DNA of 64,000 nucleotides, from NCBI GenBank assembly GCA_002778785.1, contig PEZS01000016.1, positions 241,106 through 305,105 of the forward strand, written 5' to 3'. Positions within the stretch are counted from its first letter, which is position 1. Every line of letters begins with the position of its first letter. Source of the DNA: Bdellovibrionales bacterium CG10_big_fil_rev_8_21_14_0_10_45_34. GTDB taxonomy: Bacteria; Bdellovibrionota; Bdellovibrionia; Bdellovibrionales; 1-14-0-10-45-34. The position numbers and the translations under genes are program-made. The notes beneath the pieces are model-generated. The model had not been told where the DNA came from, did not search any database, and saw only the letters and a program-made list of their open reading frames with translations. Positions 39,800-60,603 of this stretch are shown here, piece by piece.

Positions 39800-39839
39800 G
39801 CGGGTGTAGCTCAGTTGATAGAGCGTCGCCTTGCCAAGG
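39800..39839 (+). pseudogene. 5' half of the host tRNA-Gly(GCC), split by the element
   Basis: Acceptor strand GCGGGTG, D-arm (GCTC..GAGC), anticodon strand TCGCC (39826-39830) and loop TTGCCAA (39831-39837) are intact. After the shared core ending at 39839 the sequence leaves the tRNA: the anticodon stem does not close correctly, and no CACCCGC acceptor partner follows. The missing half is at 60557-60603. Confidence 0.9.
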
Positions 39840-39851
39840 AGACGGTCTATC
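39829..39851. other. attL: core plus left element arm
   Basis: Core CCTTGCCAAGG followed by element arm AGACGGTCTATC (39840-39851). Joined to the right-end arm GATAGACCGTCT it would form the 35-bp perfectly palindromic attP (17-bp arms around a central C). Confidence 0.85.
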
Positions 39852-39980
39852 AACTTTTGAGTAGTAGACTAATGGAGAGTTTGGTTAGAGATTTTATGAG
39901 TTTAGTGGATTGTTACTTTGAGAAAATCGGCATCTCAAAAAGCCAAAACTGGCTAAGTGGCAAAAGCTGCGCTTTTAAGC

Positions 39981-40056
39981 GCGGGAGTAGCTCAGTTGAT
40001 AGAGCGCTGCCTTGCCAAGGCAGAGGTCGCGGGTTTGAATCCCGTCTCCCGCTCCA
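39981..40056 (+). tRNA. tRNA-Gly(GCC) carried by the element
   Basis: A complete cloverleaf. Acceptor GCGGGAG/CTCCCGC, D-stem GCTC/GAGC, anticodon stem CTGCC/GGCAG, loop TTGCCAA with anticodon GCC at 40014-40016, T-stem GCGGG/CCCGT (one G-T wobble), discriminator T and encoded CCA. A T-rich run (40059-40071) follows. It differs from the split host tRNA in acceptor, anticodon and T stems, so it is not a duplicate of it. It has no strong promoter of its own that I can see. Confidence 0.95.
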
Positions 40057-40104
40057 ATTTTCTTTTTTTAAATTAGAAAGTTTGAGTTCTGAATCGAGGG
40101 TCGC

Positions 40105-40323
40105 ATGAACAGCGATCCGAAAGTTGTTCCCTTCTTCAAAGGGAAAGTAAATCCCAAATACGCAAATGTTTCTGATTCCCTGAAGTGGGCTATCCCTATG
40201 ATGGAAGCTCAAGACAGCCCTGAAGTTCAAGCTGGCCACAAAGCTTCGGAAGAGCGAGCCCGCGCAATGCGAGCCGAAAAAGAGCGGGCAAAACTCAAAG
40301 CCTCATTCAAAGTTATTTCTTAG
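40105..40323 (+). CDS. Small hypothetical protein downstream of the element tRNA
   Basis: A 72-residue, Ala/Lys/Glu-rich product with a C-terminal helix (KASEERARAMRAEKERAKLKASF). GAGGG lies upstream of the ATG. It starts 49 bp after the tRNA and overlaps the convergent integrase gene by 11 nt. The position next to the integrase is where excision-factor genes often lie, but the sequence shows no HTH and I cannot assign it. Confidence 0.4.
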   Translation: MNSDPKVVPFFKGKVNPKYANVSDSLKWAIPMMEAQDSPEVQAGHKASEERARAMRAEKERAKLKASFKVIS

Positions 40324-41611
40324 CAAAAGCCTTCAAAAACTGATTCGAGACTTGATTGATGTACTTTTCGGTCGTCCTGAATGAACTGTGCAAACAGCAC
40401 TTCTGCAGGAAGTATGGATTCCCCAAATACCAATCATGCAGATGGAGCGCACCGATGGTCGCATAGCTATGCTTCCATGCGTGAGGGTGCAGAAACTTGA
40501 AATCGCAATCTTTAGCAATCTGTCGCCACCACTTCATAACGGTGTCAGGATGGCAATCAAGCAAACGATCTTTCGGGGCAATGTTCTTTTTGAGGAAACG
40601 AGCGACATCCACCAATATCTTGGGTGACGGCTGAACCATTGGTAACTGGATTCGTTCGCCTGAAGTTGTCTTAGTTGCGTCCTCAAAAACGAGAGCACCT
40701 TTTTCCCCACGGCTCCAGCCAGAAACGATATTGTCCTTCAAATCAAAGTTCGGCACGTCGTCATCGGGGTGCAAACATTCCGCATTCAAGCCCAGTAAGT
40801 TCCCACGACGGAGGCCCGTGCAGACTCCGAAGAAAATCGCATAGGCTTTCTTTTTCATCTCCAGATTATCTTTGTAAGCCTTGTCGATGGCATCCTTGAT
40901 GTCATTCAACTCGTCCTCAGTGTAGGTCTCTTTCGTGCGGACACCTGTCACATCCTCACCACGGCGACGGGCTTGTTTCTTCTGTTCAAGGGTCATCTTG
41001 ATATCGAGAGTATAAAAGTCGTCTTGACCAATATAGCCCGAATCCAAAAGAAACCGCATATACTCATTAAACGGTGTCGTGATTGAGCTGTAGGTGTTGT
41101 GCGAATATTTCTTTCCGCTCAGGGTCTTGGCCATCATCACATGAGTGCGAGCTTTTGCTTTGAAGTTTTTAAAATCCTTCGGGTGATTGCATCCGTTGCC
41201 TAAGAAGAACGGCATCCAAAATCGCTTCATCCAACCTTTGTAGGCAAACGGAATACTGTGCGTACTTTTGAAGGCAACGAACTCATCCAGGTTGTCCTCA
41301 AAGTTGAACTCTTTGCTCTTGAGATCGAGCTTCTCTTGAATCTTGTATTTCGGCAGAGCGTATTTATCTTTAAGCTCTTCATACAAACGGTGCTTCAACG
41401 CTTGAAAATGATTATCCTGATTCGCTGCGGCCTTTTTCAATTTGTGAGCACGAAGATACTCATTGATCTGTTTTAAGGTGGGTTGAACTTTGGAGCTGAT
41501 TTGCACTTGCGCACCATTCGGAGGACGAATGGCGACACGCAGGGAATCAAACTTCTTCCCAGCTCGCCACATTGGATAAATACCCTGGATGGTACTTCTG
41601 CCTTTTGCCAT
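40313..41611 (-). CDS. Tyrosine recombinase (integrase) of the element
   Basis: This 432-residue integrase has an N-terminal arm-binding and core-binding region and a C-terminal catalytic domain. Arg I lies in TGLRRGNLLGL. The box II motif reads HPHAWKHSYAT, where the usual second Arg of H-x-x-R is Lys. The nucleophile is the Tyr in RTTEKYINQV. It starts MAKGRSTIQG with GGAG upstream. It is transcribed toward the left end, next to attL and the tRNA-Gly. It should recombine the palindromic attP with the tRNA-Gly anticodon stem-loop. Confidence 0.9.
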   Translation of the reverse strand: MAKGRSTIQGIYPMWRAGKKFDSLRVAIRPPNGAQVQISSKVQPTLKQINEYLRAHKLKKAAANQDNHFQALKHRLYEELKDKYALPKYKIQEKLDLKSKEFNFEDNLDEFVAFKSTHSIPFAYKGWMKRFWMPFFLGNGCNHPKDFKNFKAKARTHVMMAKTLSGKKYSHNTYSSITTPFNEYMRFLLDSGYIGQDDFYTLDIKMTLEQKKQARRRGEDVTGVRTKETYTEDELNDIKDAIDKAYKDNLEMKKKAYAIFFGVCTGLRRGNLLGLNAECLHPDDDVPNFDLKDNIVSGWSRGEKGALVFEDATKTTSGERIQLPMVQPSPKILVDVARFLKKNIAPKDRLLDCHPDTVMKWWRQIAKDCDFKFLHPHAWKHSYATIGALHLHDWYLGNPYFLQKCCLHSSFRTTEKYINQVSNQFLKAFAKK

Positions 41612-41698
41612 AAACTCCTTGGATAGTCCTTGTGCCGCGTTCCTTTCAAAAGATCAACGCTTATACGCACTTGGCTTATCGGGAATTGGCAGAAAAAC

Positions 41699-41720
41699 TT
41701 GAGTAGTAACGGTCTATCCA
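41699..41720. promoter_or_regulatory. Possible integrase arm-type site
   Basis: TTGAGTAGTA (41699-41708) directly followed by ACGGTCTATCCA (41709-41720). The first string recurs at 39857-39866. ACGGTCTATC recurs at the left end (39842-39851), and the 12-mer recurs as its complement at the right end (60543-60554). It lies upstream of the integrase gene. Confidence 0.5.
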
Positions 41721-41762
41721 GTTTCTTCTATCACTTGTAGGCTATCCCGTGATGCCTGGTCT

Positions 41763-41806
41763 GTATAAAAGTTGACTTTATTTTCAAAAAATGTCAGCAT
41801 TTATAC
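41763..41806. promoter_or_regulatory. Operator-like inverted repeat of the abiE operon
   Basis: GTATAAAAGTTGAC (41763-41776) and GTCAGCATTTATAC (41793-41806) form a 14-bp inverted repeat with 12 matches, ending 4 bp before the abiEi ATG. AbiEi antitoxins are known to autoregulate through inverted repeats in their promoters. Confidence 0.65.
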
Positions 41807-41810
41807 CATT

Positions 41811-42377
41811 ATGACGAAGCTACCAAAAGCCCTTCAGAAAGGGCCCTTTACCTATAAACAAGCCTTGGCCTCTGGACTCAACTTGAGATCGGTCCGGCAA
41901 CTTGTCGCTGAGGAGCAATGCTACACCGTTGCCAAAGGCGTCTATATGCCAACGAATGTAGAGTACAATGAAGAAAACCAATTCAGGGCGGCCACTCTCA
42001 TCGTGGGACAGCCTTCGGCCATTTGTTTAGTCTCTGCACTTTCGGTGTACGGACTTACCGATACCATTCCACGCAAAACATGGATCACAGTACCCGCAAC
42101 GAAGCGGACTCAAGTTTCAAGCCTTAAAGTTTTGCGACAGAGCGATCCTCAATGGGACATCGGGATTGAAAAGAAAAATGGCTACACGATAACTTCCGTT
42201 GAGCGCACCCTTGTTGAATCTTTCTGCTATAAAAATATGATTGGCAGCACCGTCCCTATCGAAGCCCTGCGAGAAGCCGTCAGAAAAAAACTAACGACTC
42301 CTTCTAAAATACTCGATATGGCAAAAAAAATGAAAGTCGTTCACCGAATACTTCCGTACTTAGAGGCAATGGCATGA
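41811..42377 (+). CDS. abiEi: AbiEi antitoxin (type IV toxin-antitoxin, abortive infection)
   Basis: A 188-residue protein with an N-terminal winged helix (FTYKQALASGLNLRSVRQLV, then VAKGVYMP) and a C-terminal antitoxin domain (SAICLVSALSVYGLTDTIPRKTWITVPA, SVERTLVESF), the order found in AbiEi. The ATG at 41811 matches the family N-terminus; a TTG further upstream would lie inside the operator. It overlaps the toxin gene by 4 nt. It represses its own promoter and neutralises AbiEii; both roles are family knowledge. Confidence 0.88.
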   Translation: MTKLPKALQKGPFTYKQALASGLNLRSVRQLVAEEQCYTVAKGVYMPTNVEYNEENQFRAATLIVGQPSAICLVSALSVYGLTDTIPRKTWITVPATKRTQVSSLKVLRQSDPQWDIGIEKKNGYTITSVERTLVESFCYKNMIGSTVPIEALREAVRKKLTTPSKILDMAKKMKVVHRILPYLEAMA

Positions 42378-43228
42378 GCAAGATGATTTCTCCTGAAAAA
42401 ATTCAACTGGAACTCAACAAACTCGCCAAAGCTTCAAAAACTCTTTCGGTGAATGACCTTCGCATGATTTTGGCCTTGGAGCGTGTGATCGCCCGCGTAG
42501 AGAATCACAAAAAACTCTCAAAGCATTTTGTTTTCAAGGGTGGGTTTGTTTTGCTTAAAACTGTCAATTCAGATCGCTTCACTCGTGATGTGGATGCGCT
42601 TGCCATCGGCCTTTCTCGCAAACAAGTCCCTGACCTTGTGGAAGATGCTTTGTCTCAAGATCTGCAGGATGGGCTTTGGTTCGGCGACGTCAAGACCAGC
42701 GATCTTGTAAATCAAGGGCCGTATGGCGGCTACACTTTCAACGCAGCTTTCACTATCGGCAAAGCCCCATCGGTTAAAGATCCAAAAATCAAAAAATTTT
42801 CCAGAATCCGTATTGACGTGGGATTTGGTGACGCGCTGGATTCGGTGCCAGAAAAACAATCCATGCCGTCTATTCTTGCGAGCGAAGAACCTGTCACTTG
42901 GTCGATCTATCCATTTGAGTTTATCTTTGCCGAAAAAATGGAAGCCTTGTTTTCTCGTGGCAGCAATAACTCCCGATCAAAAGACATCTACGATATGCAG
43001 CTCATCTTTGGAAAAATCAAAGACAAGAAATTGCTTCGCAAGGCCATTCAAAAAACTTTTGAAAACCGCAAGACTCCAATCCCTGAATCGTTCTGGGCAA
43101 CCGCCCAAGAGTTTGAATTGGCCGTTTTAAAAAAGGCCTGGGGTTCGGTTGAGCTATCAACTGGCGAAGAACCGTTCGATGATGTCTGGGAAAAGTTTTT
43201 GACGGTCTTGCGTTCTTTGGAGTCTTAA
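42374..43228 (+). CDS. abiEii: AbiEii nucleotidyltransferase toxin
   Basis: This 284-residue protein has the AbiEii motifs: HFVFKGGFVLLK (GG pair, about 53-64), RFTRDVDALAIG (metal-binding Asp pair), IRIDVGFGD, and IYPFEFIFAEKMEALFSRG with RSKDIYDMQLI. It blocks growth when unchecked, giving abortive infection. Coupled to abiEi by an ATGA overlap. It is only distantly like the chromosomal AbiEii-like protein at 7.2-8.0 kb. Confidence 0.9.
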   Translation: MSKMISPEKIQLELNKLAKASKTLSVNDLRMILALERVIARVENHKKLSKHFVFKGGFVLLKTVNSDRFTRDVDALAIGLSRKQVPDLVEDALSQDLQDGLWFGDVKTSDLVNQGPYGGYTFNAAFTIGKAPSVKDPKIKKFSRIRIDVGFGDALDSVPEKQSMPSILASEEPVTWSIYPFEFIFAEKMEALFSRGSNNSRSKDIYDMQLIFGKIKDKKLLRKAIQKTFENRKTPIPESFWATAQEFELAVLKKAWGSVELSTGEEPFDDVWEKFLTVLRSLES

Positions 43229-43529
43229 AAGGATTATTTCGGTCCTCGGCGCCGATTTTTTTTAATTCTCAAACTCACCGAGGTAAAATACGAATGCTGA
43301 TTTTTAATAATCCCATTTTCAATTTTTAATAAAACACCCGTTAAAGCGAGTCTCACAGAGCCGACCATGCGCACTTAAACGGCCTTGGCTCGCCCGTGGT
43401 CGCATTTTTGGAGGCCAATCCCTGCTTGGCACCACCTCAGGCAATGCCGTGGCTTTAAAACAAAAACATTAAATTATTAAAAATCACTATGCGCATCGGA
43501 AACTTCGCAACAGCGGTCACTTTTAAACA
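43229..43529. other. Intergenic region with three TTTTTAATAA motifs
   Basis: This region between convergent abiEii and the zeta-like gene holds TTTTTAATAA at 43301-43310 and 43323-43332 and its complement at 43474-43483. The same motif recurs at 53.9-55.3 kb. No gene or clear terminator found. Confidence 0.5.
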
Positions 43530-46406
43530 TTACTTTCCTAAGAACAACTCACTACAACTCTTGCCAGCCGCGCCCGATGGCTTAGAAGACTTCGCAGGAA
43601 CTGAGGTAACTGGAATAACTGGCGCCTCAGCTTTTAGTCTTGCGGCAACGCCATAATTTGAATCACGGTAAATTTCTGCGCTATGAACGCCTGTCAAACC
43701 ATTGCCGTCTCGGATCTGTTTTGCGATTGCATCCATACGAATTTGCAAAACCTCTTGGATACGTTGTGAGTTAACTTCTTGGCGACCTACCCGCATCACC
43801 TGGGCCAATACCTGAACCCCAAGTTTAAAAAAGTCAGCTCTGCTGACTGTCTTTCGCAAGTTATCCAACATTGCGGGACCGTAATACAGTAACAGAGCCG
43901 GATCGCCTTTGAAGCCTGTCGCAGAAAACTCGCGTTCTAAAGTCATTCGATCATTCGCTGGGAGTTTTTGTAGGGCTTGAAACAACTCTTCACCGTCAGC
44001 CGCTGTTTGACAACGAAACATCAGGCCAACGCGAGTCATCCAAAGAGCGCGGCTGCTATCAGGCATTATGCTTGAACTTCTTTGACGAAGGAACTCTTGA
44101 TAAGTTGCCTTTATTGATTCTTCTGAATTTGTCATGCCCTCGATGCCGGTCATCGCCGTTCTAATTCCAGCATAGGTCGGTTCTGTCAATACCAGCGAGC
44201 CATTGATGTTGTCTTGCCCACGGGCGGCAGCGATTTTTAGAATTGAAGTCGCCAAGTAAAAGTCCCGCGCGTCTTTTGAGCGATTGGCATGTTCTTTCAA
44301 AAGTCTGGCTGGAGCTTCGCCCTGAGCAAGTTGTGCAAGGTTAAATTCTTTTTCAAAACTGTTAACGACCATCTGTCTTTGAAATTCATCGAGACGCTGA
44401 TAGGTCGGCGAGATGAATGGATAAAGTCTTAGCAGTTCAGACATGACACGTTGATGGTTTGTCTCCTGAATGCCCGATGATTTTTTAAGGTACGAAATTG
44501 CGGCTTCCGATTTTCCGATATTATTAAAAATTAAAAACGAAAACAATGCGTCTCGCATAGACGGATTGAATGCCACTCGCCGAACAAGTTTTGAAATTTC
44601 TAAGAACGACTCTCGGCTCAGCCGAATATTTTCGGGCTGTCCGTGAACGAAGCCATCGTAATCGCCCGCGATAAGCCGTTTGAACAACAACAAGGCGGCG
44701 ATGGTGCGATCAAACTCAGGATACGGCTTATTGAACAACGACGTGGCTAAGGATTGCTCCAAAGCCTGGGGCACTGATCCAACTTGCTTCGGATAGGTCG
44801 CTTCATTTTTAGAACCGAGCCAGCCAAGCTCAGGAGTCAGAGTCACTCGTTCGGTGGTGGATACCAACTTGGCGGCGATAGCTTCAGGTGTGGCAACCAC
44901 GCCTTCTGTTAACAGAATCAATTCTGGATAGGATTCCAAGACTACGCGAATCAACTCTTGATCCGTGACGCTTTCAACACGTCGATAGAGGTCTCTTAAC
45001 TTACGAGTACGGCTTTCGTATTTTCTTTGGATCGCAGGAATCTCTAATCCTCTCACCAAGCGCAGCGGTCCGCGTTTGTAACCCATGTTTTCAAATTTCT
45101 TTGTTGGGTCCGAATCAAAACGAGGATCTTTCGTAAGTTGCAAAGCAACCGCTTCTGTTTCTGGATCAAGTCCAACATCTCTAACTAAAACAACAGGAAC
45201 TTGCTTTGTTAGCGCGGATTGAACAATGCCTGCGTCTCTTGCTTCTCCTCGCAAAGCAACGACCTCGATTTTCTGTTTGAGTTCGTTATCCGAAAAAATT
45301 GAATCAACGGCACCATCGGCACCAATGACGACTGAATCCTTGCGATTTGGATTTTTGGCAAGTTCTGCGGAAATCCAGTCCCGTGCGCGACCGACGCCTT
45401 CTTGATGGGTCAAAATAAACAGCGTATCGGAACTATATGTTGAAGTAATTTGATCGATGTATGACTTCAAGAGAGAAAAGTCCTCATATCCAAGGCGTCC
45501 ATATCCAGCGAGAACGACGGTTCGTCGGTGACTTTTTGCCAAAGAAAATAGCTCAGCAGAAGATGACAAGGTAATATCAGTTGGCTTCGGGACAGCCAAA
45601 CCCAGTTGTCCTGTAAGATCGAAGTGTGTCGGCACTTTTTTGCCGCGAATCTGAACTGATTTAACGGCCGGAGAAATTCCATTCTCGATTTCCAAAGTTA
45701 AGTCTGCATAAGCAGATAAGTATTCAACTGACTCTCGAACGCCAGAAGACATTTTAATAACAAGATCTTTCGGCACAAACCGTCCAGTTACTTTGCCCCT
45801 TGCTTCCACTCGCTGAAGCAAAATTTCTTCAGGAGCATTGACCGAAATAATTGAAATCGCATACTCGGGGTGCGATTGTCGGATGCGACGAAATTCAGAA
45901 ACCCACCAGTCTTTTCCTAAAAGTGTTCCATCGACAATGATGTTCTTTTTTGAACGTAGAGCCTGCTCAAAGAGTTGCTCCTGAATATGCCCTGATTCAC
46001 GGTGAACAAGTGACGCTGCATCTTCGGGCTTCGTTTGCTTAAGGTCTTTGTATTCGGGAATATCCTCTTTGATTGCATCTGGATCGATCCAGATGAACCT
46101 TGATACATCCAACAGGTCGAGCTTTTCTAAGGCCGACGCAACAAATGATTTTCCTGCTCCTGCGGGGCCGGCGGTAAAAATCAGGCGTGGCCTTTCATCT
46201 GACGAGCCAGCTTGCATTCTAACGTCGACAATTTTTTTATGGAGCGCTGCTCTTAATGGAAGGTAAGTAAATTGCCATTGACCCGTTTGGGTTGCGAATT
46301 GAGATGCAGTATCTTGCGCATCAGCAGCAAACGAAAAAGCAGAAGACAGCACGATAAGTGCGAAGAGAAAGTGTCTTGTGTGCTTTTTTAAAACTGCCAA
46401 AGCCAT
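43530..46406 (-). CDS. Exported zeta-toxin-domain multidomain protein
   Basis: This is a 958-residue protein. A signal peptide spans about 1-28 (HFLFALIVLSSAFSFAADA). A zeta/PezT-type kinase domain follows at about 70-240: Walker A GPAGAGKS at 80-87, IDPDAIKEDIPEY, and KNIIVDGTLLGKD. A Rossmann-like segment at about 285-430 (RTVVLAGYGRLGY) comes next. A large helical region (about 470-900) is shared with the upstream gene product. It ends in SCSELFLGK. Zeta toxins phosphorylate UDP-N-acetylglucosamine-type precursors; export suggests action in periplasm or in another cell. It lies 11 bp after the paralogue gene. Confidence 0.75.
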   Translation of the reverse strand: MALAVLKKHTRHFLFALIVLSSAFSFAADAQDTASQFATQTGQWQFTYLPLRAALHKKIVDVRMQAGSSDERPRLIFTAGPAGAGKSFVASALEKLDLLDVSRFIWIDPDAIKEDIPEYKDLKQTKPEDAASLVHRESGHIQEQLFEQALRSKKNIIVDGTLLGKDWWVSEFRRIRQSHPEYAISIISVNAPEEILLQRVEARGKVTGRFVPKDLVIKMSSGVRESVEYLSAYADLTLEIENGISPAVKSVQIRGKKVPTHFDLTGQLGLAVPKPTDITLSSSAELFSLAKSHRRTVVLAGYGRLGYEDFSLLKSYIDQITSTYSSDTLFILTHQEGVGRARDWISAELAKNPNRKDSVVIGADGAVDSIFSDNELKQKIEVVALRGEARDAGIVQSALTKQVPVVLVRDVGLDPETEAVALQLTKDPRFDSDPTKKFENMGYKRGPLRLVRGLEIPAIQRKYESRTRKLRDLYRRVESVTDQELIRVVLESYPELILLTEGVVATPEAIAAKLVSTTERVTLTPELGWLGSKNEATYPKQVGSVPQALEQSLATSLFNKPYPEFDRTIAALLLFKRLIAGDYDGFVHGQPENIRLSRESFLEISKLVRRVAFNPSMRDALFSFLIFNNIGKSEAAISYLKKSSGIQETNHQRVMSELLRLYPFISPTYQRLDEFQRQMVVNSFEKEFNLAQLAQGEAPARLLKEHANRSKDARDFYLATSILKIAAARGQDNINGSLVLTEPTYAGIRTAMTGIEGMTNSEESIKATYQEFLRQRSSSIMPDSSRALWMTRVGLMFRCQTAADGEELFQALQKLPANDRMTLEREFSATGFKGDPALLLYYGPAMLDNLRKTVSRADFFKLGVQVLAQVMRVGRQEVNSQRIQEVLQIRMDAIAKQIRDGNGLTGVHSAEIYRDSNYGVAARLKAEAPVIPVTSVPAKSSKPSGAAGKSCSELFLGK

Positions 46407-46417
46407 AAACTAACTTC

Positions 46418-48742
46418 CTATCTTGAAATCGCGGCTAAATGATCCGCTACGTTCATAAAGAAGATTCCCGCCATGCTTTGATCAACATGCACAAAAGGAT
46501 TCCACGGATTTCTTCCATCAACCACGACGCGAGAAGGGATCGGAAGAACTTGAAGTCCTAATTGACCGGTTAAAGCACGTTGCCATGTTAGCGGTGTTTT
46601 ACCGAAGCGCGCGTCGTTGGCGCCGGTCATATCCCATTTTGTATAAATCTGGAGAACTTGGGTTGATTGAGTTTGGTTAAGTTGAAAATATCTGGCTCCG
46701 GCAGAACCTAAAATAGCGCTGGCGTTATTTGGAGAATCAATTCCGGCAGCAACAATCGTCGAAATTTTATTTTGAACTGGCACTTCGCCGATAGCCGACA
46801 ACACTCTTAAATCTTGGTCAGGAGTCGATTTTGCGCTGTTGAGTTGAGACGATGCTTTGATGGGATAAAGAGCGTCGCCGCCTGTGTCCACTGTGATAAT
46901 CGTATCCACTCCTCGGAGCTGTTGGTTCAAGGAATTAAGTTGTCCAACCAAAGTGCCGTTCTGGCGATCCATGACCAAAAACATTGGCACTTCGTCACTC
47001 GGAAGATTTTCGAGAAACCTTCCGCTTCCAGTTGTTTGCGGCAAAATTCTATAAGTGCCATTAACAACTTCTCCGCCATGCTGTGATACGGTTCTATCTT
47101 CGCCATCACGTCCATTGAGGCCTTGAGAAGCCGTCTTTTCGGTTCTCACTGAAGCGACGTAGACAAGTTCTTTACCGGCATTTTTCAAAAGTAAGCCAAG
47201 TTGCGCTGCCTGAATTCCATCTGAACCGCCACCAATTCCGATAACAGCAACACGATGGCCAGGAATCTCTGACAAGCTATTCAGGGGTGTGAATTTAGCT
47301 GAGTCAATAACTTGGCGATCAACTAATTTTGCTTCGCCATCTTTCGCAACAAGATCAATTTCAAATTTCTTAGTAACTAACTGCTCTGGAGTTTTTCCGG
47401 CCTCAGCGATTTTTGAAATCAAAAGCGTGAAGACGCCATCGCCGTTGCGCCCTTTAATTGTGACCCTCGCTTCTTGATAAAGTTGCGCAAGAGTCGTAAG
47501 GCCCAATTGAATGCCTGCATGCTCACTTAAAACTGTCGGATTTGCCTTTGAATAAGCGAGAATATTTGAAAGCAAAGCTGGCGAATAATAAAGAAGAGTT
47601 CCATATCCGTCGCCGGTGCCGTTGATGTTCATTTCTTTAACTAAGATAGCTTTTGTATTTTGAGGAAGGCCATCAAATGCCGCTGTAATTCTTGATGCCG
47701 TATTGGTGTCTGATACGCGCATCATAGTTAACAAGCGGGTCAATGCGCGTTCTCGTGGAACTTCAACTCGCAATCCAAAAGGACGTCCTTTTTCAGATAA
47801 GAAATAGTTGTAAACATCGACTTCAGATCGGCCCTGAGCCAGTCCTTCGATAGCTTTAATGCCGAGCTTGAATCCGTCATAAGTCGGATTCGACATGACG
47901 ACCGAGCCTTCCCAGTTAACATGGCCCGCAGCTCCGCCAATGTCTGCGACGGCGTGGAGTAAATAGAAATCCAGACTTTCTTTATCTAAGCCCTTTAAGC
48001 CAGAAAGACTTGCGGCAAGGTTTTCACCCTGAATGAACTGGCCGATGTTAAATTTCGGTCTCAAGCCTCGAATCATTTTCTGCTGAGTTGCAGGAGACAA
48101 TCGAGCAAAACTTGGCGAAAGGTCCGGATGATTTTCTAAGGCAATAAGTAAGAGGTTATCGTGATCGACGTCTTTAATGCCCGCGCGTTTTTCAATTTCG
48201 CCGACGATTGATTTGATTTTCCCAAGATCGTTGATCACCATGTACGTAATCATGGCGTCAATATCTTCCGGAGTTTTGAGGATTGAGCGAGTGTAAGATC
48301 GGAGTTCATTAAAATTCTCACGGGTCATTTTAACTGCCGCGTTCTGCGGCTTTGTGAAAGCGTCGTAGTTGCCCTCAAGAATCCATTTGATAAGCAAGAT
48401 TCCAGTCGCAGTTCGATCAAACTCAATATGTTTTTCGCCGAAGATTTTCTCGGAAAGAGACTGAACTTTGTCCGAATTTGCTTTGCCTTCTGGCGTGGCG
48501 TTTACTTTTCCGGTCAGCCACGCGAGTTCAGGGTATTGAACCAACGACATTCGTACGACTTCAATGGGATCGCTTGAGGCAAAAAACTTTCTGACAAACG
48601 ACTTCGGATTTGTAGGCATAGCCTTTTCGCTTCGGGCGCCAGCATTCAGGAAAAGATCCTGGCAGGATATAGCCGCGTGGGCGTGTGGGAGGCTAAGTTG
48701 CAATGACAAAAAAAGGATAGCAACTGTTGAACTTTTAGACAT
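46418..48742 (-). CDS. Exported protein with DUF1152-like domain, paralogue of the zeta-like protein
   Basis: This is a 774-residue protein. Signal peptide MSKSSTVAILFLSLQL..HAHA (about 1-23), then SCQDLFLNAG. The helical region at about 50-420 aligns with the downstream protein (YPELAWLTG, FDRTATGILLIKWILEGNYDAF, GSVVMSNPTYDGFKLGIKAIEG). A C-terminal DUF1152-like Rossmann domain at about 500-760 has GIGGGSDGIQAAQLGLLLKN and VDTGGDALYP. The start at 48742 has GGGAG upstream and begins the signal peptide. It is the first gene of a two-gene unit. Confidence 0.7.
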   Translation of the reverse strand: MSKSSTVAILFLSLQLSLPHAHAAISCQDLFLNAGARSEKAMPTNPKSFVRKFFASSDPIEVVRMSLVQYPELAWLTGKVNATPEGKANSDKVQSLSEKIFGEKHIEFDRTATGILLIKWILEGNYDAFTKPQNAAVKMTRENFNELRSYTRSILKTPEDIDAMITYMVINDLGKIKSIVGEIEKRAGIKDVDHDNLLLIALENHPDLSPSFARLSPATQQKMIRGLRPKFNIGQFIQGENLAASLSGLKGLDKESLDFYLLHAVADIGGAAGHVNWEGSVVMSNPTYDGFKLGIKAIEGLAQGRSEVDVYNYFLSEKGRPFGLRVEVPRERALTRLLTMMRVSDTNTASRITAAFDGLPQNTKAILVKEMNINGTGDGYGTLLYYSPALLSNILAYSKANPTVLSEHAGIQLGLTTLAQLYQEARVTIKGRNGDGVFTLLISKIAEAGKTPEQLVTKKFEIDLVAKDGEAKLVDRQVIDSAKFTPLNSLSEIPGHRVAVIGIGGGSDGIQAAQLGLLLKNAGKELVYVASVRTEKTASQGLNGRDGEDRTVSQHGGEVVNGTYRILPQTTGSGRFLENLPSDEVPMFLVMDRQNGTLVGQLNSLNQQLRGVDTIITVDTGGDALYPIKASSQLNSAKSTPDQDLRVLSAIGEVPVQNKISTIVAAGIDSPNNASAILGSAGARYFQLNQTQSTQVLQIYTKWDMTGANDARFGKTPLTWQRALTGQLGLQVLPIPSRVVVDGRNPWNPFVHVDQSMAGIFFMNVADHLAAISR

Positions 48743-50843: not shown

Positions 50844-50854
50844 GGAGGTCAGTT

Positions 50855-51305: not shown

Positions 51306-51423
51306 TGCTATTAGGTGCGCGTGTCGTTTGATGACCGTGGAGCGTTGGTAAATCCATTTAACTTTGAAAGATGCAGTTCAATTTTTGTAATTGCGTCTCG
51401 AAAAAAAAGAAAGGAGCATTTTT

Positions 51424-52220: not shown

Positions 52221-52247
52221 AAAATCCTCCGTTCCTATCGCAGGCAA

Positions 52248-52478: not shown

Positions 52479-52493
52479 ACCTTTGGCCCTCAC

Positions 52494-53261: not shown

Positions 53262-53271
53262 AAATACCTCC

Positions 53272-53586: not shown

Positions 53587-54245
53587 CGTGGTCACTCCGT
53601 TCTTATCGTGAGCGAGTGAGCCGAAGTTCATGTCCTTTTCCCCAGAGAAAAACTTTTCTCTCTTGCGGCTACGAGGCAATGAACTTTCAAACTCACAAAC
53701 GCCCATGAATAGATCCTGTCGCGCTTGGTTTTACTTGTACGCGCAAAAATAAAAAATCATTGCAAATCACCATAAGCGCTTGAGATCGCTGGCCGTGGAG
53801 CGCACCGTTTTGGGAACGGCGCAGTTCTTGATCGTTGGTTGCGCAAATCGCTGACGGGACGACTTCTCTAAAGAACAATTTTTTTCGTTAAAAATGCTGG
53901 TCGCAGAAATTATTAAAAATGCCGATGGGTGGCCGATTTTTAATAATTTGGACGATTGTTTTAAACGGCGTTAAATAGGCACAGGAAATCTCGGCATTGG
54001 CTGACCCACTTATGTTCGCCGAAAACTCCGCTACGGGCTTTCTGGAGCCGTTTAAAGCCATGCGGTTAGTTGAGGTCTGGGGTAGCTTGGACTTCGGTTT
54101 TAATAATTCGCATTTAATAATCGGCGTTGTAATAGCACAGGGTTATAAAAAACGCGGGAACGTCACAGGTCACTACGGCCAAAAAAATAAAAGCACCCAT
54201 TGTTCAGGTGCTTCATTAAGTTTGTTCCATTTCAAGACATTTCAT
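53587..54245. other. 659-bp noncoding region rich in TTTTAATAA motifs
   Basis: It contains TTATTAAAAA (53910-53919), TTTTTAATAA (53937-53946), TTTTAATAAT (54098-54107) and TTTAATAAT (54113-54121), all next to CG-rich steps. The terminator of the downstream gene is at 54191-54213. The region could be a regulatory hub or an origin-like region. No convincing gene found. Confidence 0.5.
54191..54213 (-). terminator. Rho-independent terminator of the 54246-54566 gene
   Basis: On the minus strand, AAGCACC-TGAACAATG-GGTGCTT followed by TTATTTTTTT. It is nearly identical to the terminator at 54741-54765. Confidence 0.8.
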
Positions 54246-54566
54246 TTATAGGTCGTTATCAACATCAAAACCCGCGTCTTCCAGCGCGGACACTACGGCG
54301 TCCACGTCGTAAAAGTCGCCATCAATTTCTACCCAGCGTTTATCGGCCACGTTGTTACTTTTCTCATCGCAGCAGCAAAGGCGAAATGCGATAGGATCTA
54401 TTTCCCGAACAATTGTGCCGTGATCGCGGGTAAAACTTCCCAGTAACTTTACTTCTGGGAAACATTCGTTGATTGTCTCCTCCGTGTAGTCCTCAACATT
54501 CACCGGACGCACTTCTAAGTTATCCAGTTGGCCTTTTGTTAGGCCCGTTAGTTTGACTGTGTTCAT
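54246..54566 (-). CDS. Small acidic element protein, paralogue of the 50.0-kb gene
   Basis: A 106-residue protein, net acidic, homologous to the product of 50034-50366 along its length (shared KLT-LTK, RPV-V-DYT, PEVKLLGS, WVEIDGDFYDVDAVV). The ATG at 54566 has AAGGAG upstream. It has its own promoter region with the TTTTAATAA dyad and its own terminator, giving a monocistronic cassette like that of the next gene. Function unknown. Confidence 0.6.
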   Translation of the reverse strand: MNTVKLTGLTKGQLDNLEVRPVNVEDYTEETINECFPEVKLLGSFTRDHGTIVREIDPIAFRLCCCDEKSNNVADKRWVEIDGDFYDVDAVVSALEDAGFDVDNDL

Positions 54567-54659
54567 AACCTTACTCCTTTTCGTTTTAGTTTTGGCCCCC
54601 ACCGTGAGTGCCGTTATTTTCTAAATAGGAAATTTTTTGAGTAGGCAGGCTTCTTTCCG

Positions 54660-54689
54660 CCGTTTTAATAAAAATAATTATTAAAACGG
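54660..54689. promoter_or_regulatory. Perfect dyad of the TTTTAATAA motif
   Basis: CCGTTTTAATAA (54660-54671) and TTATTAAAACGG (54678-54689) are perfect complements with a 6-bp spacer, about 95 bp upstream of the 54566 start. The half-site TTATTAAAACGG recurs at 55278-55289 upstream of the next gene. Confidence 0.65.
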
Positions 54690-54740
54690 TTTTTTCCGTT
54701 CATCTTGTTTGGGTGGGCTGGACCGTTAAGCCAAAAAAAA

Positions 54741-54765
54741 GAAGCACCCATTGTTCGGGTGCTTC
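54741..54765 (-). terminator. Rho-independent terminator of the 54811-55179 gene
   Basis: On the minus strand, GAAGCACCC-GAACAAT-GGGTGCTTC followed by TTTTTTTT. It is almost the same as the terminator at 54191, differing at one base of the stem. Confidence 0.85.
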
Positions 54766-54810
54766 AGTCAATTTGTGTCATTGATTTAATCCTGATGAGT
54801 AGTGAGGTAA

Positions 54811-55179
54811 CTAAATGCGATGGCCTAAACCACGAAGAAACTCCGTAGCCTCGTCTTGGCTTTTGTGCTTGTGAATTAGAAAGCGGTCGCCCATTGTTGC
54901 GTCATGGTGGCCAATTTTCACTTCCCAATGGTCAACGCGGTCGTAAACTACGAAGCTTGCATCAAATGATAAGCTCAACAGCTTTTCTCCATTGCCCTCA
55001 ACAATTCTGCAAACTTTGTCACGGTCCCAACCGAAAGCTTTCGCGCTCATGGAGTAAATCCCTTTCGGGAAAACACGGTTCAAGTCTTTTGCAACCCATT
55101 GCCAATAGTCTTCGCCATATTCCTCCGCGTCCCAGTGGTTACTAAAAGCTAAAATTGGTTCCTCATTTTTATTGTTCAT
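54811..55179 (-). CDS. Small acidic element protein
   Basis: A 122-residue protein of unknown function (FSNHWDAEEYGEDYWQWVAKDL ... FVVYDRVDHWEVKIGHHDATMG is the general pattern, residues about 9-95). The ATG at 55179 follows GGACG 9 nt upstream. Its promoter region (55200-55290) resembles that of the neighbouring 106-aa gene, including CTATTTA-AAAA-TAACGG and TTATTAAAACGG, and its terminator is a near copy. It belongs to the methyltransferase block. Confidence 0.55.
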   Translation of the reverse strand: MNNKNEEPILAFSNHWDAEEYGEDYWQWVAKDLNRVFPKGIYSMSAKAFGWDRDKVCRIVEGNGEKLLSLSFDASFVVYDRVDHWEVKIGHHDATMGDRFLIHKHKSQDEATEFLRGLGHRI

Positions 55180-55325
55180 ACATTCGTCCTTTCGTTTTGT
55201 TATGGCCCTCACTACGAGAGCCGTTACTTTTTAAATAGCGGTTTTTTAGGCCAACCGGATTTTTTCTGACCATTTTTTTATTAAAACGGTGTTTCCGATT
55301 TATGATTTTTGAATAGTCCACTTTA

Positions 55326-56144
55326 TTAGCGGCCCATCAGTGCTTTTTTTTTAAACGCGACCAAACCACCTGGCAGCTCAATTCGTTTGCCATCACAGCT
55401 CAAGAGCTTATCCATCAGGTCTTGTCGTTCATTGGTGACTGTGTAGCCGTATTTTTCGCAGCTAAAATAGCGGCAAACGATATGCTTAATGCGGTCTTCG
55501 CCAAAATCTCTTACGAAATCGTCAAGAGTAAAGCCAGACATCAGGTCTGTGACGTAATCCAGCTGTTCGTCGTAGCTCATTTTTAGAAATACCTCATCGC
55601 CAACGATGGTTTGTTCATAGTCGTCGCGTGCCAGCTCATAGAGTTTTTTAAAAATGTCATCCACGTCGTCATTACGAAGTCCCAACTTTATGTCATCCCA
55701 TGAAATATCAGTAACTTCTTGAGCGCGGCAGTCTTCTTCCAATTCGTCAGCAAGATGTAGAGCAAGAGCTGATAAACCAAAGGCGCCTATGACCTTGTAG
55801 TAGTGGTCGGTCAAAATTAAGTCCGCCATGACATCACCATTACCGTCGTCATTGTCAGCGTCGTCTGCCGTGAAGTTCTCAATGAACATGCTGACTATTT
55901 CTTGTCCTTGATTTTCTGGGAGGTTCATTAGGTGGGCGATATTCAAACAAGTATTGTAGTGAGCATCGGTCCACCCATGGTCTTTCGCTATTTTTTGGAT
56001 TTTAGTCGCATGAACGACCAGGCTATCAACTTCACCTACGTTTCCGTCTTGAATTGCTTTGTCTATCGCTTTCCGCTCATCATGCTCACCCAGATATGAC
56101 GTCAAAAGAGCTTCTTCAAGCGGCTTGGTTTTTTTCTTGCTCAT
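55326..56144 (-). CDS. Acidic hypothetical protein coupled to the methyltransferase
   Basis: A 272-residue protein, rich in Asp and Glu (ENFTADDADNDDGNGDVMADLI, YLGEHDERKAID, ADELEEDCRAQEV) and mostly helical. The ATG at 56144 starts 1 nt after the methyltransferase stop, so the two are co-translated. No domain recognised. Strong acidity and linkage to a methyltransferase recall DNA-mimic or antirestriction accessory proteins, but that is speculation. Confidence 0.6.
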   Translation of the reverse strand: MSKKKTKPLEEALLTSYLGEHDERKAIDKAIQDGNVGEVDSLVVHATKIQKIAKDHGWTDAHYNTCLNIAHLMNLPENQGQEIVSMFIENFTADDADNDDGNGDVMADLILTDHYYKVIGAFGLSALALHLADELEEDCRAQEVTDISWDDIKLGLRNDDVDDIFKKLYELARDDYEQTIVGDEVFLKMSYDEQLDYVTDLMSGFTLDDFVRDFGEDRIKHIVCRYFSCEKYGYTVTNERQDLMDKLLSCDGKRIELPGGLVAFKKKALMGR

Positions 56145-56145
56145 A

Positions 56146-58260
56146 TCAAGCCGCCTTTCTTTTTTGGTTTTGTGTTTTTGATTTTCTGTAATTTTCCGTT
56201 TCCACAACCATGCCCAGTTGAGAAAGATAATCTAAACGCTCACCCAATAAATCACCGCCATATACAAAGATGACTGAGCCGAACATGGCTTGCTTTTTGT
56301 TGATGGTTTCATTGTGAATAAGGCGCTGTTTTAGAAAAACAATATGAGTGGCACCTTCGCAGAATCCACGGAACCATTTACTTTCTGGCGTCCATGCGGG
56401 AACCAAAGAGAAAATAGGTTGGCCGTTTTGTTTGTATTCCGCCGCCATTTTTTCCGCCCACGCTAATAATCCATTTTTATCGTTGTAAGGTGGATTGACA
56501 AAGACGCCATGGCCGCTACTGACTTCCCATGACTTTTTGAGAGCATTGTCTTTTTTGGTCAGTATTCTTTTAAACTTGTGAACCAAGTTTGCTTCCGAAC
56601 CGGTAGCCGCGTCCAGCTCAAGCGGATACACAAAGTTTAAAAAATCCACCAACCACTTAGGCGTCATCTGATGGTTTTTCTTGTCTTTGGTTTTCCAGCC
56701 TTCAATTGTTTCAAACAATTCTTTATCAGTAGAAGGCTCTACTTTAGTAAAAATAGGCGGCGGTGTAACTGAACCGCCTTTCACCAACGCCAATTTCTTT
56801 TTTGGAGTGCGGTTTGATTTTTCTACTAAGTCTTGCGTCCCGCCAGAAAAACGCGCACCTTTCATTTGCGGCTTTTGGTCTTGAGCGGCAGTTTCATTTG
56901 CCGCAACTTTTGGAGCCTTGGTCTTTTTGTTGGCTTTCAGCTTAGCTGTAACTTGTGGAGCTTTGCTCTTTTGGGTGGCTACGGCTTTCTTATTTTTTTG
57001 CGGTGGCGCTGGGTCAATTCTCTTTCCAGAGTTTTTAGTAACCCGCACGCCCTTATCCCACAATGTCAGTGAAACAAGGATTTCTTTGAATAGCTCACGG
57101 ATTACCGGAACTGGGACGGAGTTCCCCAGCTGTTTGTAACTTTCAGATGCAGACGCCGTGAGTTTGTAGTTGTCTGGAAAGCCTTGAAGCCTTGCGCATT
57201 CCCGTGGGGTGAGTTTGCGTAAGTGAACTTTTTTGGTATTTCCATCTTTATCCGTCAAATCATACACGCCACGGTTTTTAGGTGCGCTCTTTTCAAGGGG
57301 CACCGCCACAAGATTTTTTAGCAGTGATGATGTTGACCGCAAGATGGTGTGCGTGGGTTTAGCAGGGTCAATGATTTCAAAGCCAAAGTTATCGCCATTT
57401 TTGTCATAGCGGTCTTTTGCTTGAACCAGCGTATCTATTTGCTCTTGGCTAAGGAAATAGTTTTTGTGAACGGAGTTTTCTAAAATCTCACCACTTGCCG
57501 CCGCAAGAACGGTTGGCTTTGGAAAACTGAACGGAACATTCTCACGGAAAGCCACAATGAAAAGTCTTTCACGGGCTTGCGGCACACCATAGTGAGATGC
57601 TTTTATAACTTGGTGGTGAGTGTAGTAGCCACGGGAATGTAGTTCTTTAAGAACGGTTTTTAATCCACGGCCACCATTGGTGGTAGCCATGCCTTTTACA
57701 TTCTCAATGAAAAGAACACGGTGTTCCGGGTGGGCGTCCGCAATTCTAAAAACGTCATAGATAAGTTGCCCACGGTTATCTTTGAGACCTTTGCGTTTGC
57801 CTTGAGTAGAAAAAGATTGGCACGGTGTTGAAGCCGTCAACACGTCAAAGTTAGGCACCGTGTCCGCTTTAAGTTGAGTAATATCCCCAAATGGGCAATC
57901 ACCAAAGTTGTCCTGATAAGTGGCAATGCAGTGTTTATCAATTTCACTTGCGGCTACCACCTTAAATCCCGCTTGTTCAGCACCTAAACGGGTGCCGCCG
58001 ATTCCGGCGAACGCTTCAAAAATTGTGAGCGGTTGAACGTTGCCGCCATTTGGCTTTTTGTGTTTCACCCACCGCAATGCCTTGAACCAGCTTGCCGCTT
58101 GAGTGCGGGTGTTTTGGATTTGTTTAAAAATCCAATTCCGCACCTGATTAAAAAGTGCGGTCAGTATTAACACCCATTGCGCGGTATTAATTTTTGTTGG
58201 TGCTACCTGAGTAGCGGTTTTCTTTTTAGAACGGGACTTGGTTACAGTTTTTGATTTCAT
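56146..58260 (-). CDS. Fused DNA methyltransferase: cytosine-C5 plus adenine-N6 domains
   Basis: This is a 704-residue protein. An N-terminal basic extension (1-75) precedes a complete C5 methyltransferase (about 78-400): motif I FEAFAGIGGTRLG, motif IV TPCQSFSTQGKRKG with catalytic Cys, VI FIENVKG, VIII QARERLFIV, IX RKLTPRECARLQGFP, X QLGNSVPVPV. A Lys/Ala/Pro-rich linker (about 410-490) joins a phage Dam-like N6-adenine domain (about 520-690; MTPKWLVDFL, LDAATGSEANL, FVNPPYND). AGGAGG lies 6 nt upstream. Both active sites look intact. No restriction nuclease is recognisable beside it. Confidence 0.85.
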   Translation of the reverse strand: MKSKTVTKSRSKKKTATQVAPTKINTAQWVLILTALFNQVRNWIFKQIQNTRTQAASWFKALRWVKHKKPNGGNVQPLTIFEAFAGIGGTRLGAEQAGFKVVAASEIDKHCIATYQDNFGDCPFGDITQLKADTVPNFDVLTASTPCQSFSTQGKRKGLKDNRGQLIYDVFRIADAHPEHRVLFIENVKGMATTNGGRGLKTVLKELHSRGYYTHHQVIKASHYGVPQARERLFIVAFRENVPFSFPKPTVLAAASGEILENSVHKNYFLSQEQIDTLVQAKDRYDKNGDNFGFEIIDPAKPTHTILRSTSSLLKNLVAVPLEKSAPKNRGVYDLTDKDGNTKKVHLRKLTPRECARLQGFPDNYKLTASASESYKQLGNSVPVPVIRELFKEILVSLTLWDKGVRVTKNSGKRIDPAPPQKNKKAVATQKSKAPQVTAKLKANKKTKAPKVAANETAAQDQKPQMKGARFSGGTQDLVEKSNRTPKKKLALVKGGSVTPPPIFTKVEPSTDKELFETIEGWKTKDKKNHQMTPKWLVDFLNFVYPLELDAATGSEANLVHKFKRILTKKDNALKKSWEVSSGHGVFVNPPYNDKNGLLAWAEKMAAEYKQNGQPIFSLVPAWTPESKWFRGFCEGATHIVFLKQRLIHNETINKKQAMFGSVIFVYGGDLLGERLDYLSQLGMVVETENYRKSKTQNQKRKAA

Positions 58261-58292
58261 ATTTGCCTCCTAAGGGCAAAGTAAGAAATCGA

Positions 58293-58331
58293 GGCTGACG
58301 CACGGACGAGGCTTGGCTGACAGATGGCGGA
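58293..58331. repeat. 39-bp inverted-repeat copy A upstream of the methyltransferase
   Basis: This site and the complement of 60374-60412 match at 32 of 39 positions. It contains two GGCTGAC units, one in GGCTGACAGATGGC, about 20 bp apart. It lies 33-71 bp upstream of the methyltransferase start. Confidence 0.75.
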
Positions 58332-58455
58332 CAGCTAAAAAGGGAAAGGATTTCTGATGGTTGAAGACCACAGATCTTTTAAAAAAGAACATGCGCGAGA
58401 GCGCCTGTTCAATAAACTGTATTTAAAATGGCAAACCGCGATTGGCTAAGTGTGA

Positions 58456-60255
58456 TTAGCTCGCACGGTTTTTTGATTTTGGCGGGAGGGCCTTTGAGGT
58501 CTTGGTTTTATCGATGATTTTTTGAGCTTGCTTGTGATCAGAAAAATCATCTTCGCCCGGAATCCATGCTGTATTGATTCGATACATTCCGCGCTCAAGG
58601 CTAACGATAAACTTATTCCATAACGGATGACGGGCGAAAATATCGCTACTGACTTTCAGTGGAGTTTTGCGGGTGTCTCCCACGGAGGGATAGAGATCGA
58701 CAATCATGTCCGACGGGGTATCAGGATTTCCGCCTTCGTGCCGCGAATACAGCAATTTTACGGCAAGGGCTTGGTCTTCTGAAAAATTGCTGATCAGCCT
58801 CCCATCAAACTTCAATGATCGAAATCGGCTATCAAATGCGAACGGTGAGTTTTTAACTTTATATTCGGCAAGCCCCAGCTTTGCGATCTGACCATCGTTA
58901 AATCCTAAATTAAGTGTCGGTGAGGTGCGCTCCCCAGACAATTCCTCACTTTCAAGGCGGAGGAGTTTCGCCAATAACGCATTGGCATCCTTTGCTTGGC
59001 TCAAACGGCTCATAATCTCGTTAAGGGCTTTCTTGTTTTGGCGAGACACCTGAATAGTAATGTGATCAATCCATTGGCCATCCAAAGAGGAATTGAGTTC
59101 ACGATCAAAATTATTAAAAAAAGCTTCCTGCGCTTCAATCGCCTGCGCCCAATAATCTATGGCGTCGTTAAATGAGCGAGATTTATCGCCAATACTGTTT
59201 TGATAAAAATTGAGGCCGAAGACGGAGTGACCGGAAGGAAGTTTTTTGAGGAAAGGGGCGAGCTTGATTTGCGTCTGTCTTAAACAGCCCGTGTCCGTCT
59301 CAAACGCTACTGAAGCGATAAAAAATAAAATGTCGTCGATGGAGCCATAAGATGGCCCCTCCGTTGCGCTGACTGGTGGCGGATTAGATTCGTCATATTC
59401 AACATAGTCCACAGACATCGCGTGCTCTTCGCGTACTTGCTGGTCGATGTGAAAAAACGCTTTAAAGTCATCACCTTCCGGATCAAACGATTTTAATAGT
59501 AGTTCAGACAGGGATTTATAGATCCCATCAATCCCATTTTTTTGTAATGACTCGATAGCTACGCTTGTTGTTCCCAGTAAAAACTCAAACAGCTTTTCCC
59601 GCAATTGGCGAACGCCAACAGTTTGACCCTCAAGCACCACGCCCCATTCTTTTTCGCTAAATAAATCCCTATATCGGTACGGAGCTAAGTCATCGCATAT
59701 ATTCGCGGCTGGCGTATGCTCATCGCATTCAATTTCCGCTCCCATCAGGTCGTGAAATGACTGCGCTAAAAGAGTGCGGGGAATGAAGTGGTTGAAGCAA
59801 GAAAAAGAAAAGGGACTTTCCGTGTAGCCTTTTGAGACAAATTCTTCGCGGTGCTTTTTTAAAAAATCACGATACTTATTGAGAATAACGACCAGCTCTT
59901 GCTTTGAATAAAAAGGGGGCTGCGTTTGTTTGAGGTTGAGCGCTGTCGCGTATCGGACTTTCAGCTTTGGAAGTGGGCTGGAGAAGAAGTCCACCAATTG
60001 CTCTTTTGACAATACCGCCGCGGCTTCATCCAAATCTGGAAAGAAAAAAAGCTCTCCACTAAAACCATGTTGTTTTACCTGCGGAACCCAATAGTCAGGT
60101 TTTTGATCAGTCAGTTCGGCCGTTTCCCGCAAAACCAGTTCAACCCATGACGGTTCCAATTGATAAGCCTCGGCGATCCTTGCGGCCTCCGCAGAAATAA
60201 ACTCCTCGTAGCGAACGGCAAGTTCGTCATCTTTCAGCATCTCAAAAATATCCAT
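58456..60255 (-). CDS. Large hypothetical protein next to the methyltransferase
   Basis: A 599-residue soluble protein that I do not recognise. It has no signal peptide, no membrane span, and no visible P-loop, PD-ExK or HNH motif. Sequence marks include an acidic middle (DQQVREEHAMSVDYVEYDES) and a basic C-terminus (KTSKALPPKSKNRAS). It lies upstream of the methyltransferase on the same strand, with related 39-bp repeats before each gene, so shared regulation is likely. A defence or element-maintenance role is possible but unsupported. Confidence 0.6.
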   Translation of the reverse strand: MDIFEMLKDDELAVRYEEFISAEAARIAEAYQLEPSWVELVLRETAELTDQKPDYWVPQVKQHGFSGELFFFPDLDEAAAVLSKEQLVDFFSSPLPKLKVRYATALNLKQTQPPFYSKQELVVILNKYRDFLKKHREEFVSKGYTESPFSFSCFNHFIPRTLLAQSFHDLMGAEIECDEHTPAANICDDLAPYRYRDLFSEKEWGVVLEGQTVGVRQLREKLFEFLLGTTSVAIESLQKNGIDGIYKSLSELLLKSFDPEGDDFKAFFHIDQQVREEHAMSVDYVEYDESNPPPVSATEGPSYGSIDDILFFIASVAFETDTGCLRQTQIKLAPFLKKLPSGHSVFGLNFYQNSIGDKSRSFNDAIDYWAQAIEAQEAFFNNFDRELNSSLDGQWIDHITIQVSRQNKKALNEIMSRLSQAKDANALLAKLLRLESEELSGERTSPTLNLGFNDGQIAKLGLAEYKVKNSPFAFDSRFRSLKFDGRLISNFSEDQALAVKLLYSRHEGGNPDTPSDMIVDLYPSVGDTRKTPLKVSSDIFARHPLWNKFIVSLERGMYRINTAWIPGEDDFSDHKQAQKIIDKTKTSKALPPKSKNRAS

Positions 60256-60373
60256 ACCTTAAAAGTTTAAGCGAAGTACCCACCCCCTGTCGCGCAAGAC
60301 CGCTACCGCTTTGCGGATTTAGCCCCTTGGTCTTGTTCCGCGCATAAATCAAATCCCAACACCACAAAACCCA

Positions 60374-60412
60374 TCAGCCATCTGTCAGCCGTGCCTCGTC
60401 CGGCTGTCAGCT
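60374..60412. repeat. 39-bp inverted-repeat copy B near the element right end
   Basis: Inverted relative to copy A at 58293-58331 (32 of 39 identical). It lies 119-157 bp upstream of the 599-aa gene start and about 150 bp from attR. Confidence 0.75.
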
Positions 60413-60544
60413 TCGTTTTCCTATCCTGCCCCCATGGCCACCCGCTGGACCTAATGCGGTCCGCCAAGGCCTGAACCCAAAACCAAAGGCCGCACCCAGC
60501 CTTTTCGCCTGCCCCTTAATTTTCAGTATTTAGAGCAAAAAGTG

Positions 60545-60567
60545 GATAGACCGTCTCCTTGCCAAGG
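60545..60567. other. attR: right element arm plus core
   Basis: Element arm GATAGACCGTCT (60545-60556) followed by core CCTTGCCAAGG (60557-60567). The arm is the exact complement of the left arm at 39840-39851. Upstream bases also resemble the host tRNA D-arm/anticodon region (24 of 27 over 60541-60567). Confidence 0.85.
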
Positions 60568-60603
60568 CGAAGGCCGCCGGTTTGAGCCCGGTCACCCGCT
60601 CCA
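60557..60603 (+). pseudogene. 3' half of the host tRNA-Gly(GCC)
   Basis: It comprises loop TTGCCAA (60559-60565), stem GGCGA, T-arm GCCGG/CCGGT, acceptor CACCCGC, discriminator T and CCA (60601-60603). Joined to 39800-39839 it forms a 76-nt tRNA with perfect acceptor (GCGGGTG/CACCCGC) and anticodon stems (TCGCC/GGCGA). It has no promoter here. Confidence 0.9.

Follow-up and report, generated by a model that had tools for sequence, protein, structure and literature searches.

An integrative element of Bdellovibrionales that splits the host tRNA-Gly(GCC) gene and carries a replacement tRNA of the same isoacceptor

The element described here very probably breaks the sole tRNA-Gly(GCC) gene of its host and carries a same-isoacceptor replacement behind the promoter of the broken gene; that the replacement is transcribed from there and needed by the cell is what we infer from the arrangement of the locus. 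The element lies in the window, i.e., the whole stretch of 64,000 nucleotides of a Bdellovibrionales genome that was analysed. The underlying principle, tRNA-dependent lysogeny, is already known from actinophages, where it was described in 2024. What is new is the phylum, an element in which phage structural genes were not detected, a compact arrangement expected to make use of the host's promoter, an attP that is palindromic, and the presence of rebuilding and replacing members within one integrase family.

The Split tRNA-Gly Gene and the Carried tRNA

An earlier, sequence-only reading of this DNA had proposed that the host tRNA-Gly(GCC) gene lies in two halves 20.7 kb apart, with an overlap of only 11 exact bases from which the tRNA is not rebuilt. 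Both halves are indeed found, the cut falls in the anticodon loop, and ARAGORN calls no tRNA at either attL or attR of the window element (Table 1). The 11-bp core is exact in both halves, CCTTGCCAAGG, and comprises the anticodon loop and two stem bases on either side. The halves fused at this core give a perfect 76-nt tRNA-Gly(GCC), which agrees with the proposal that they once formed a single gene, and they match the rejoined gene with E = 5e-15 (5′ half) and 2e-22 (3′ half), so that the resemblance is not due to chance. The single tRNA that ARAGORN calls in the window is a complete tRNA-Gly(GCC), with a concordant Rfam tRNA match of 70.6 bits; it starts 141 bp inside the left end of the element and runs in the direction of the host gene, as had also been claimed, and is 85% identical to the rejoined host gene.

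Table 1. Features of the element and its flanks (positions within the window)
Feature	Position	Strand	Basis or remark
pgsA-like host gene, conserved neighbour upstream of the tRNA site	38941..39627	+	gene order in relatives
Presumed promoter of host tRNA-Gly, left ahead of the 5′ half	39749..39778	+	TTGACA-18-TATGTT, 10/12 consensus
Host tRNA-Gly(GCC) 5′ half = attL	39800..39839	+	ends in 11-bp core (39829-39839)
Integrated element, 20.7 kb	39840..60567	n/a	
attL inner arm AGACGGTCTATC, inverted copy of attR arm	39840..39851	+	deduced attP palindrome
Spacer, host half to replacement tRNA	39840..39980	+	
Replacement tRNA-Gly(GCC), complete	39981..40056	+	ARAGORN, Rfam; 98.7% identity to native tRNA-Gly of G041
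Small protein, 72 aa, DVPDxLKWAIP-type motif, directly 3′ of replacement tRNA	40105..40323	+	
Tyrosine integrase, 432 aa	40313..41611	-	Pfam, PHROG, family alignment
attR inner arm GATAGACCGTCT	60545..60556	+	deduced attP palindrome
Host tRNA-Gly(GCC) 3′ half = attR	60557..60602	+	starts with 11-bp core (60557-60567)

The Attachment Site

The attP deduced for the window element, GATAGACCGTCTCCTTGCCAAGGAGACGGTCTATC, is a perfect 35-bp palindrome, the single-strand folding of which is far better than that of shuffled sequence (z -9.8). Its left arm and core are identical to the native D-arm/anticodon segment at 21 of 23 positions. The native segment is present in more than 20 genomes, and the attP form of the arm is restricted to the genome of the window (G000), the genome of the related locus L098 (G089) and a remnant in G046. 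The attP therefore resembles its target on the 5′ side only, from the D arm to the anticodon stem, and repeats this part in mirror image; the block held in common with the host gene in G050 and in the Val-GAC members described below likewise spans the D arm to the anticodon stem. Since such a block covers the 5′ side only, integration would be unable to replace the lost 3′ half, hence the need for a whole carried tRNA. The palindrome was considered as a general trait of the family and rejected, as it is perfect in the Gly element, imperfect in the Val-GAC members and not symmetric in the Val-UAC member of G050.

Sole-Copy Status and Glycine Codons

In the genome of the window (3.06 Mb in 16 contigs, 100% complete), an Rfam tRNA-family search counted 35 tRNA genes, which were typed by ARAGORN on the matching loci; the five weakest of these 35 matches are of the long type by length and have no locus of their own, one being typed as Ser in a neighbouring locus. 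A search for other GCC or UCC tRNA-Gly genes, suggested along with the sequence-only reading, yields the expected picture: the element's tRNA is the only intact GCC isoacceptor among the 35, the sole other tRNA-Gly is UCC, and no further tRNA-Gly(GCC) gene was found by direct search of the genome. GGC and GGU make up 407 of the 699 glycine codons in the chromosomal ORFs of the window. By the established rules of decoding, these two codons should be poorly served by a UCC tRNA, so that a functional GCC tRNA should be essential to the host.

Empty Sites and Source of the Carried tRNA

The order glpX-pgsA-tRNA-Gly(GCC) is kept in relatives of the same order (e.g., G001, G013, G015, G004 and G032), and a single intact tRNA-Gly(GCC) occupies the syntenic site in, for example, G001, G013, G015 and G032. 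The gap from pgsA to the tRNA is about 180 bp in G001 versus 173 bp in the window, and the rejoined host gene is 93% identical to the tRNA-Gly of several relatives. Empty-site relatives thus have one unbroken tRNA-Gly at this site, and none was found that holds both tRNAs there, an arrangement with which the earlier reading would have been incompatible. In G041, the divergent type of tRNA is the single native tRNA-Gly gene, under an apparent promoter of its own. Given the 98.7% match to this gene and the identity of the first 40 bases of the replacement with the host half in L098, the replacement looks as if it was taken from another lineage of the order; the native gene of G041 points to a donor lineage and leaves the earlier reading unrefuted.

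Recurrence in Related Elements

The same layout was predicted to occur in independent related elements with other tRNAs, and it was found for Val-UAC and Val-GAC. Altogether, nine genomes with integrases of the same family contain ten pairs of a half and a complete tRNA, at three target tRNAs: Gly-GCC (the window and L098, in genome G089), Val-UAC (G050, G052, G105, G076 and G023) and Val-GAC (G103, G104 and G105). In G076, G104 and one G105 locus, the integrase lies off the stretch with the tRNA pair and is linked to it by genome and sequence similarity. Where the flanks are well preserved, the common layout consists of the host 5′ half, cut in the anticodon loop, followed by a spacer, a complete tRNA, a small ORF and a convergent integrase. 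At all ten loci, the isoacceptor that is carried matches the one that is broken, and its anticodon loop is identical to that of the host; the complete tRNA starts 178-204 bp after the start of the half and always has the orientation of the host gene. For nine of the ten loci, no intact isoacceptor other than the element's copy was found; the tenth, in G103, is accompanied by a second intact Val-GAC copy that itself stands at an element-type junction.

Relatives of the integrase occur in 12 of 144 genomes of the class and in one further genome of the phylum; they are confined to this phylum in the collections searched, and searches of 50,697 phage records, of plasmids and of viral contigs found none. 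The related genomes are mostly assembled from metagenomes; several of these assemblies break off at the repeated tRNA, and several related contigs end next to the integrase. The L098 integrase, 97% identical to that of the window, sits in the same tRNA-Gly gene of a different host; it is frameshifted, so this copy may be immobile. In G050, the far half lies 18.9 kb away and the rejoined halves form a tRNA-Val(UAC). For the G052 element, a search of about 48 kb of downstream sequence revealed no far junction.

Less regular arrangements also occur. Contig C74 of G103 contains tandem or decayed Val-GAC elements in L143 (about 368-607, 6479-6537) and L144 (14978-15229), with attP-like junctions followed by a replacement tRNA that has a different acceptor stem; one chimeric tRNA on this contig has mismatched acceptor strands, which suggests recombination through the replacement tRNA. 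On contig C65 of G108 (L155), a distance of 2.7 kb separates an intact tRNA-Val(UAC) from the small ORF and a piece of an integrase, and a tRNA fragment that starts in the D arm follows 14 kb on; this locus may be a remnant or a rebuilt member.

Rebuilding Relatives

G204, which belongs to another class, encodes an integrase 56% identical to that of the window. Next to it lie a homologue of the small ORF and an intact tRNA-Gly(GCC) with an apparent promoter. Three fragments identical to the 3′ part of this tRNA (query 16-79, 19-79 and 31-79) are located 19 to 31 kb away, an arrangement that reads as the classical rebuilt one, stacked. In the tree, the G204 integrase is grouped with those of the window and L098 with a support of 97/98. 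Because this rebuilding member groups with replacing ones, the strategy must have changed between rebuilding and replacing within one integrase family at one target, and the well-supported grouping opens the switch to study, both strategies being found at the same tRNA.

The tRNA-Gly sites of G046, G048 and G004 were considered as replacement cases and rejected, since they show ordinary remnants or rebuilt sites. Contig C118 of G048 (L073/L074) carries a classical island at the pgsA-tRNA site: the tRNA-Gly(GCC) is rebuilt, and a 3′ fragment lies at a distance of 19.4 kb.

Genes of the Element

The integrase matches Pfam Phage_integrase at 4e-4, which is below the gathering cut-off, and the PHROG integrase family at 9.5e-15; comparison of its profile with solved structures gave no match. 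K314, H408 and Y417, residues of the catalytic type, are invariant in the family alignment. Homologues of the small protein are encoded at the equivalent place in L098, G050, G052, G105, G023, G076 and G204. Since the protein is 100% identical between the window and L098 while the DNA differs at synonymous sites, the small ORF is a real gene. From its position, one might guess that its product is an excision or regulatory factor encoded on a transcript shared with the tRNA.

The element also encodes an AbiEi/AbiEii-like pair, zeta-toxin/DUF6829 proteins, a replication-initiator-like protein, a repressor-like HTH protein and C5 plus N6A methyltransferase, and no virion or conjugation genes were found among the larger element ORFs tested. 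The AbiEi/AbiEii-like pair (41772-43228, + strand) adjoins the integrase and is possibly a second stabilising module. Two large DUF6829 proteins with apparent signal peptides are encoded at 43530-48811 (- strand), the first of which also has a zeta-toxin-like kinase domain, and a 704-aa protein (56146-58260, - strand) consists of a C5-cytosine methyltransferase joined to a phage-type N6-adenine methyltransferase.

Expression of the Replacement tRNA

In the proposed mechanism, the tyrosine integrase would act on the only tRNA-Gly(GCC) gene of the host by recombination in the anticodon loop, so that the carried tRNA comes to lie about 140 bp downstream of the host half with its promoter. The sequence-only reading had located the carried tRNA downstream of a stranded promoter-like site, and this site is the only + strand promoter-consensus match in 39600-40400. 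The host promoter would then read through the dead half and the spacer, and RNase P and other normal tRNA processing would release the replacement tRNA, which would sustain the cell until the original gene is regained by precise excision. In the integrated state, a damaged element tRNA would be lethal. The idea that the element rescues the loss it causes is supported by the sole copy, the rejoining of the halves, the empty sites and the recurrence; the host dependence envisaged with it would not be permanent, lasting only while the element is integrated, because precise excision would restore the host gene. A more specific version, which we hold only tentatively and at somewhat less than even chances, is that the carried tRNA and the small gene lack a promoter as long as the element is free and become active only once integration has put them behind the host tRNA promoter. 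If this is true, correct insertion would break an essential gene, activate the cure and signal the integrated state via the small protein.

The replacement tRNA could instead be driven by a promoter inside the element, its place beside attL being incidental, as in mycobacteriophages that have their tRNA elsewhere. We regard this as unlikely but worth serious consideration: the Fionnbharth tRNA is under its own strong promoter, the AT-rich Val spacers contain loose -10-like strings, and a weak spacer promoter may escape a consensus scan. However, that scan leaves the spacer without a + strand promoter, no common promoter is kept between the L098 and window spacers, and the narrow range of distances and constant orientation at the ten loci weigh against incidental placement. 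It is extremely improbable that a half and a complete copy came together by accident, be it through one ordinary insertion after another or through faulty assembly. tRNA genes often harbour islands in tandem, and arrays are present in G204 and G103, yet ten pairs of one layout, in nine separately assembled genomes and at three different tRNAs, would have to be explained in this way; moreover, displaced fragments of the family start in the D arm, whereas the 5′ acceptor strand is complete in the replacement tRNAs. Phage tRNAs are generally thought to serve in codon supply or in escape from anticodon nucleases (discussed in PMC10865867), and the tRNA might be cargo of this kind, with the split of the host gene secondary; this is very improbable, as codon supply would not predict the match between carried and broken isoacceptor, down to the anticodon loop, at every locus.

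A boxA-like antitermination signal, TTCTTTGAAAATTGAATAG, was considered in the Val spacers, by comparison with the rRNA spacer of the same genome, and rejected, as the spacers of G076, of G023 and of the Val-GAC and Gly elements lack it. The string lies near the host half in the Val-UAC spacers of G050, G052 and G105 (L077 13650-13850, L078 and L146), which also contain TGGTAGA direct repeats, similar to a tRNA D arm and possibly serving the integrase as arm sites.

Replacement of a broken host tRNA by a carried one, the reading preferred here, would extend essential-tRNA replacement from temperate phages to an element family of Bdellovibrionota. Because attP must match just a few anticodon-loop bases, such elements could cross between hosts with diverged tRNAs, horizontally replacing an essential tRNA gene. 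Annotation tools that expect a rebuilt tRNA and one fragment will misread replacement sites.

Comparison with Known Systems

tRNA-dependent lysogeny was described in actinophages by Guerrero-Bustamante and Hatfull (2024; PMC10865867), for Fionnbharth (K4), cluster L, Cain (K6), Gaia (X) and BrutonGaster (CQ2). In these cases, cores of 8-17 bp do not rebuild the tRNA and the phage brings a tRNA of the same isotype, which experiments in mycobacteriophages showed to be required; the close relatives Boilgate, Ximenita and Omega rebuild the tRNA instead (PMC10865867). The reach of the phenomenon beyond actinophages was posed there as a question, with Lj965 of Lactobacillus johnsonii cited as a likely case (PMC10865867). 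The window element has in common with these phages a tyrosine integrase, a target in the anticodon region of a single-copy tRNA, a short core that does not rebuild it and a carried tRNA of the same isotype. Of the features of tRNA-dependent integration, the integrase, attB in a tRNA, the lack of rebuilding, the same-isoacceptor tRNA and the absence of a redundant host copy are present. The known systems are temperate phages, and in Fionnbharth, the best studied, the tRNA lies elsewhere in the genome with its own promoter. In contrast, the window element belongs to Bdellovibrionota and has its tRNA fixed downstream of the host promoter, beside attL, with a conserved small ORF following the tRNA, and its attP is palindromic; the ORFs scanned include no virion genes, and no relatives of the integrase were found in the phage records or viral contigs searched. 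Because no phage structural gene was detected among the larger ORFs, the element is not filed under lysogeny in the strict sense; it would rather work on the same principle, with expression of the tRNA and the need for it presumed.

Host tRNA genes replaced by phage-related sequences are reported for Sinorhizobium meliloti (PMC11476347). As in the window, the inserted DNA disables a host tRNA gene and supplies a similar isoacceptor closest to that of another lineage; the hosts are different, the sequences are phage-related, and the available part of that source describes no layout beside a host promoter. Classical tRNA islands (Islander, PMC4383910) resemble the window element in their tyrosine integrase, the anticodon-loop subsite and the displaced tRNA fragment at the far end, but they restore the tRNA from attP. 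An intact tRNA restored at one junction is absent from the window element and present in its relative G204.
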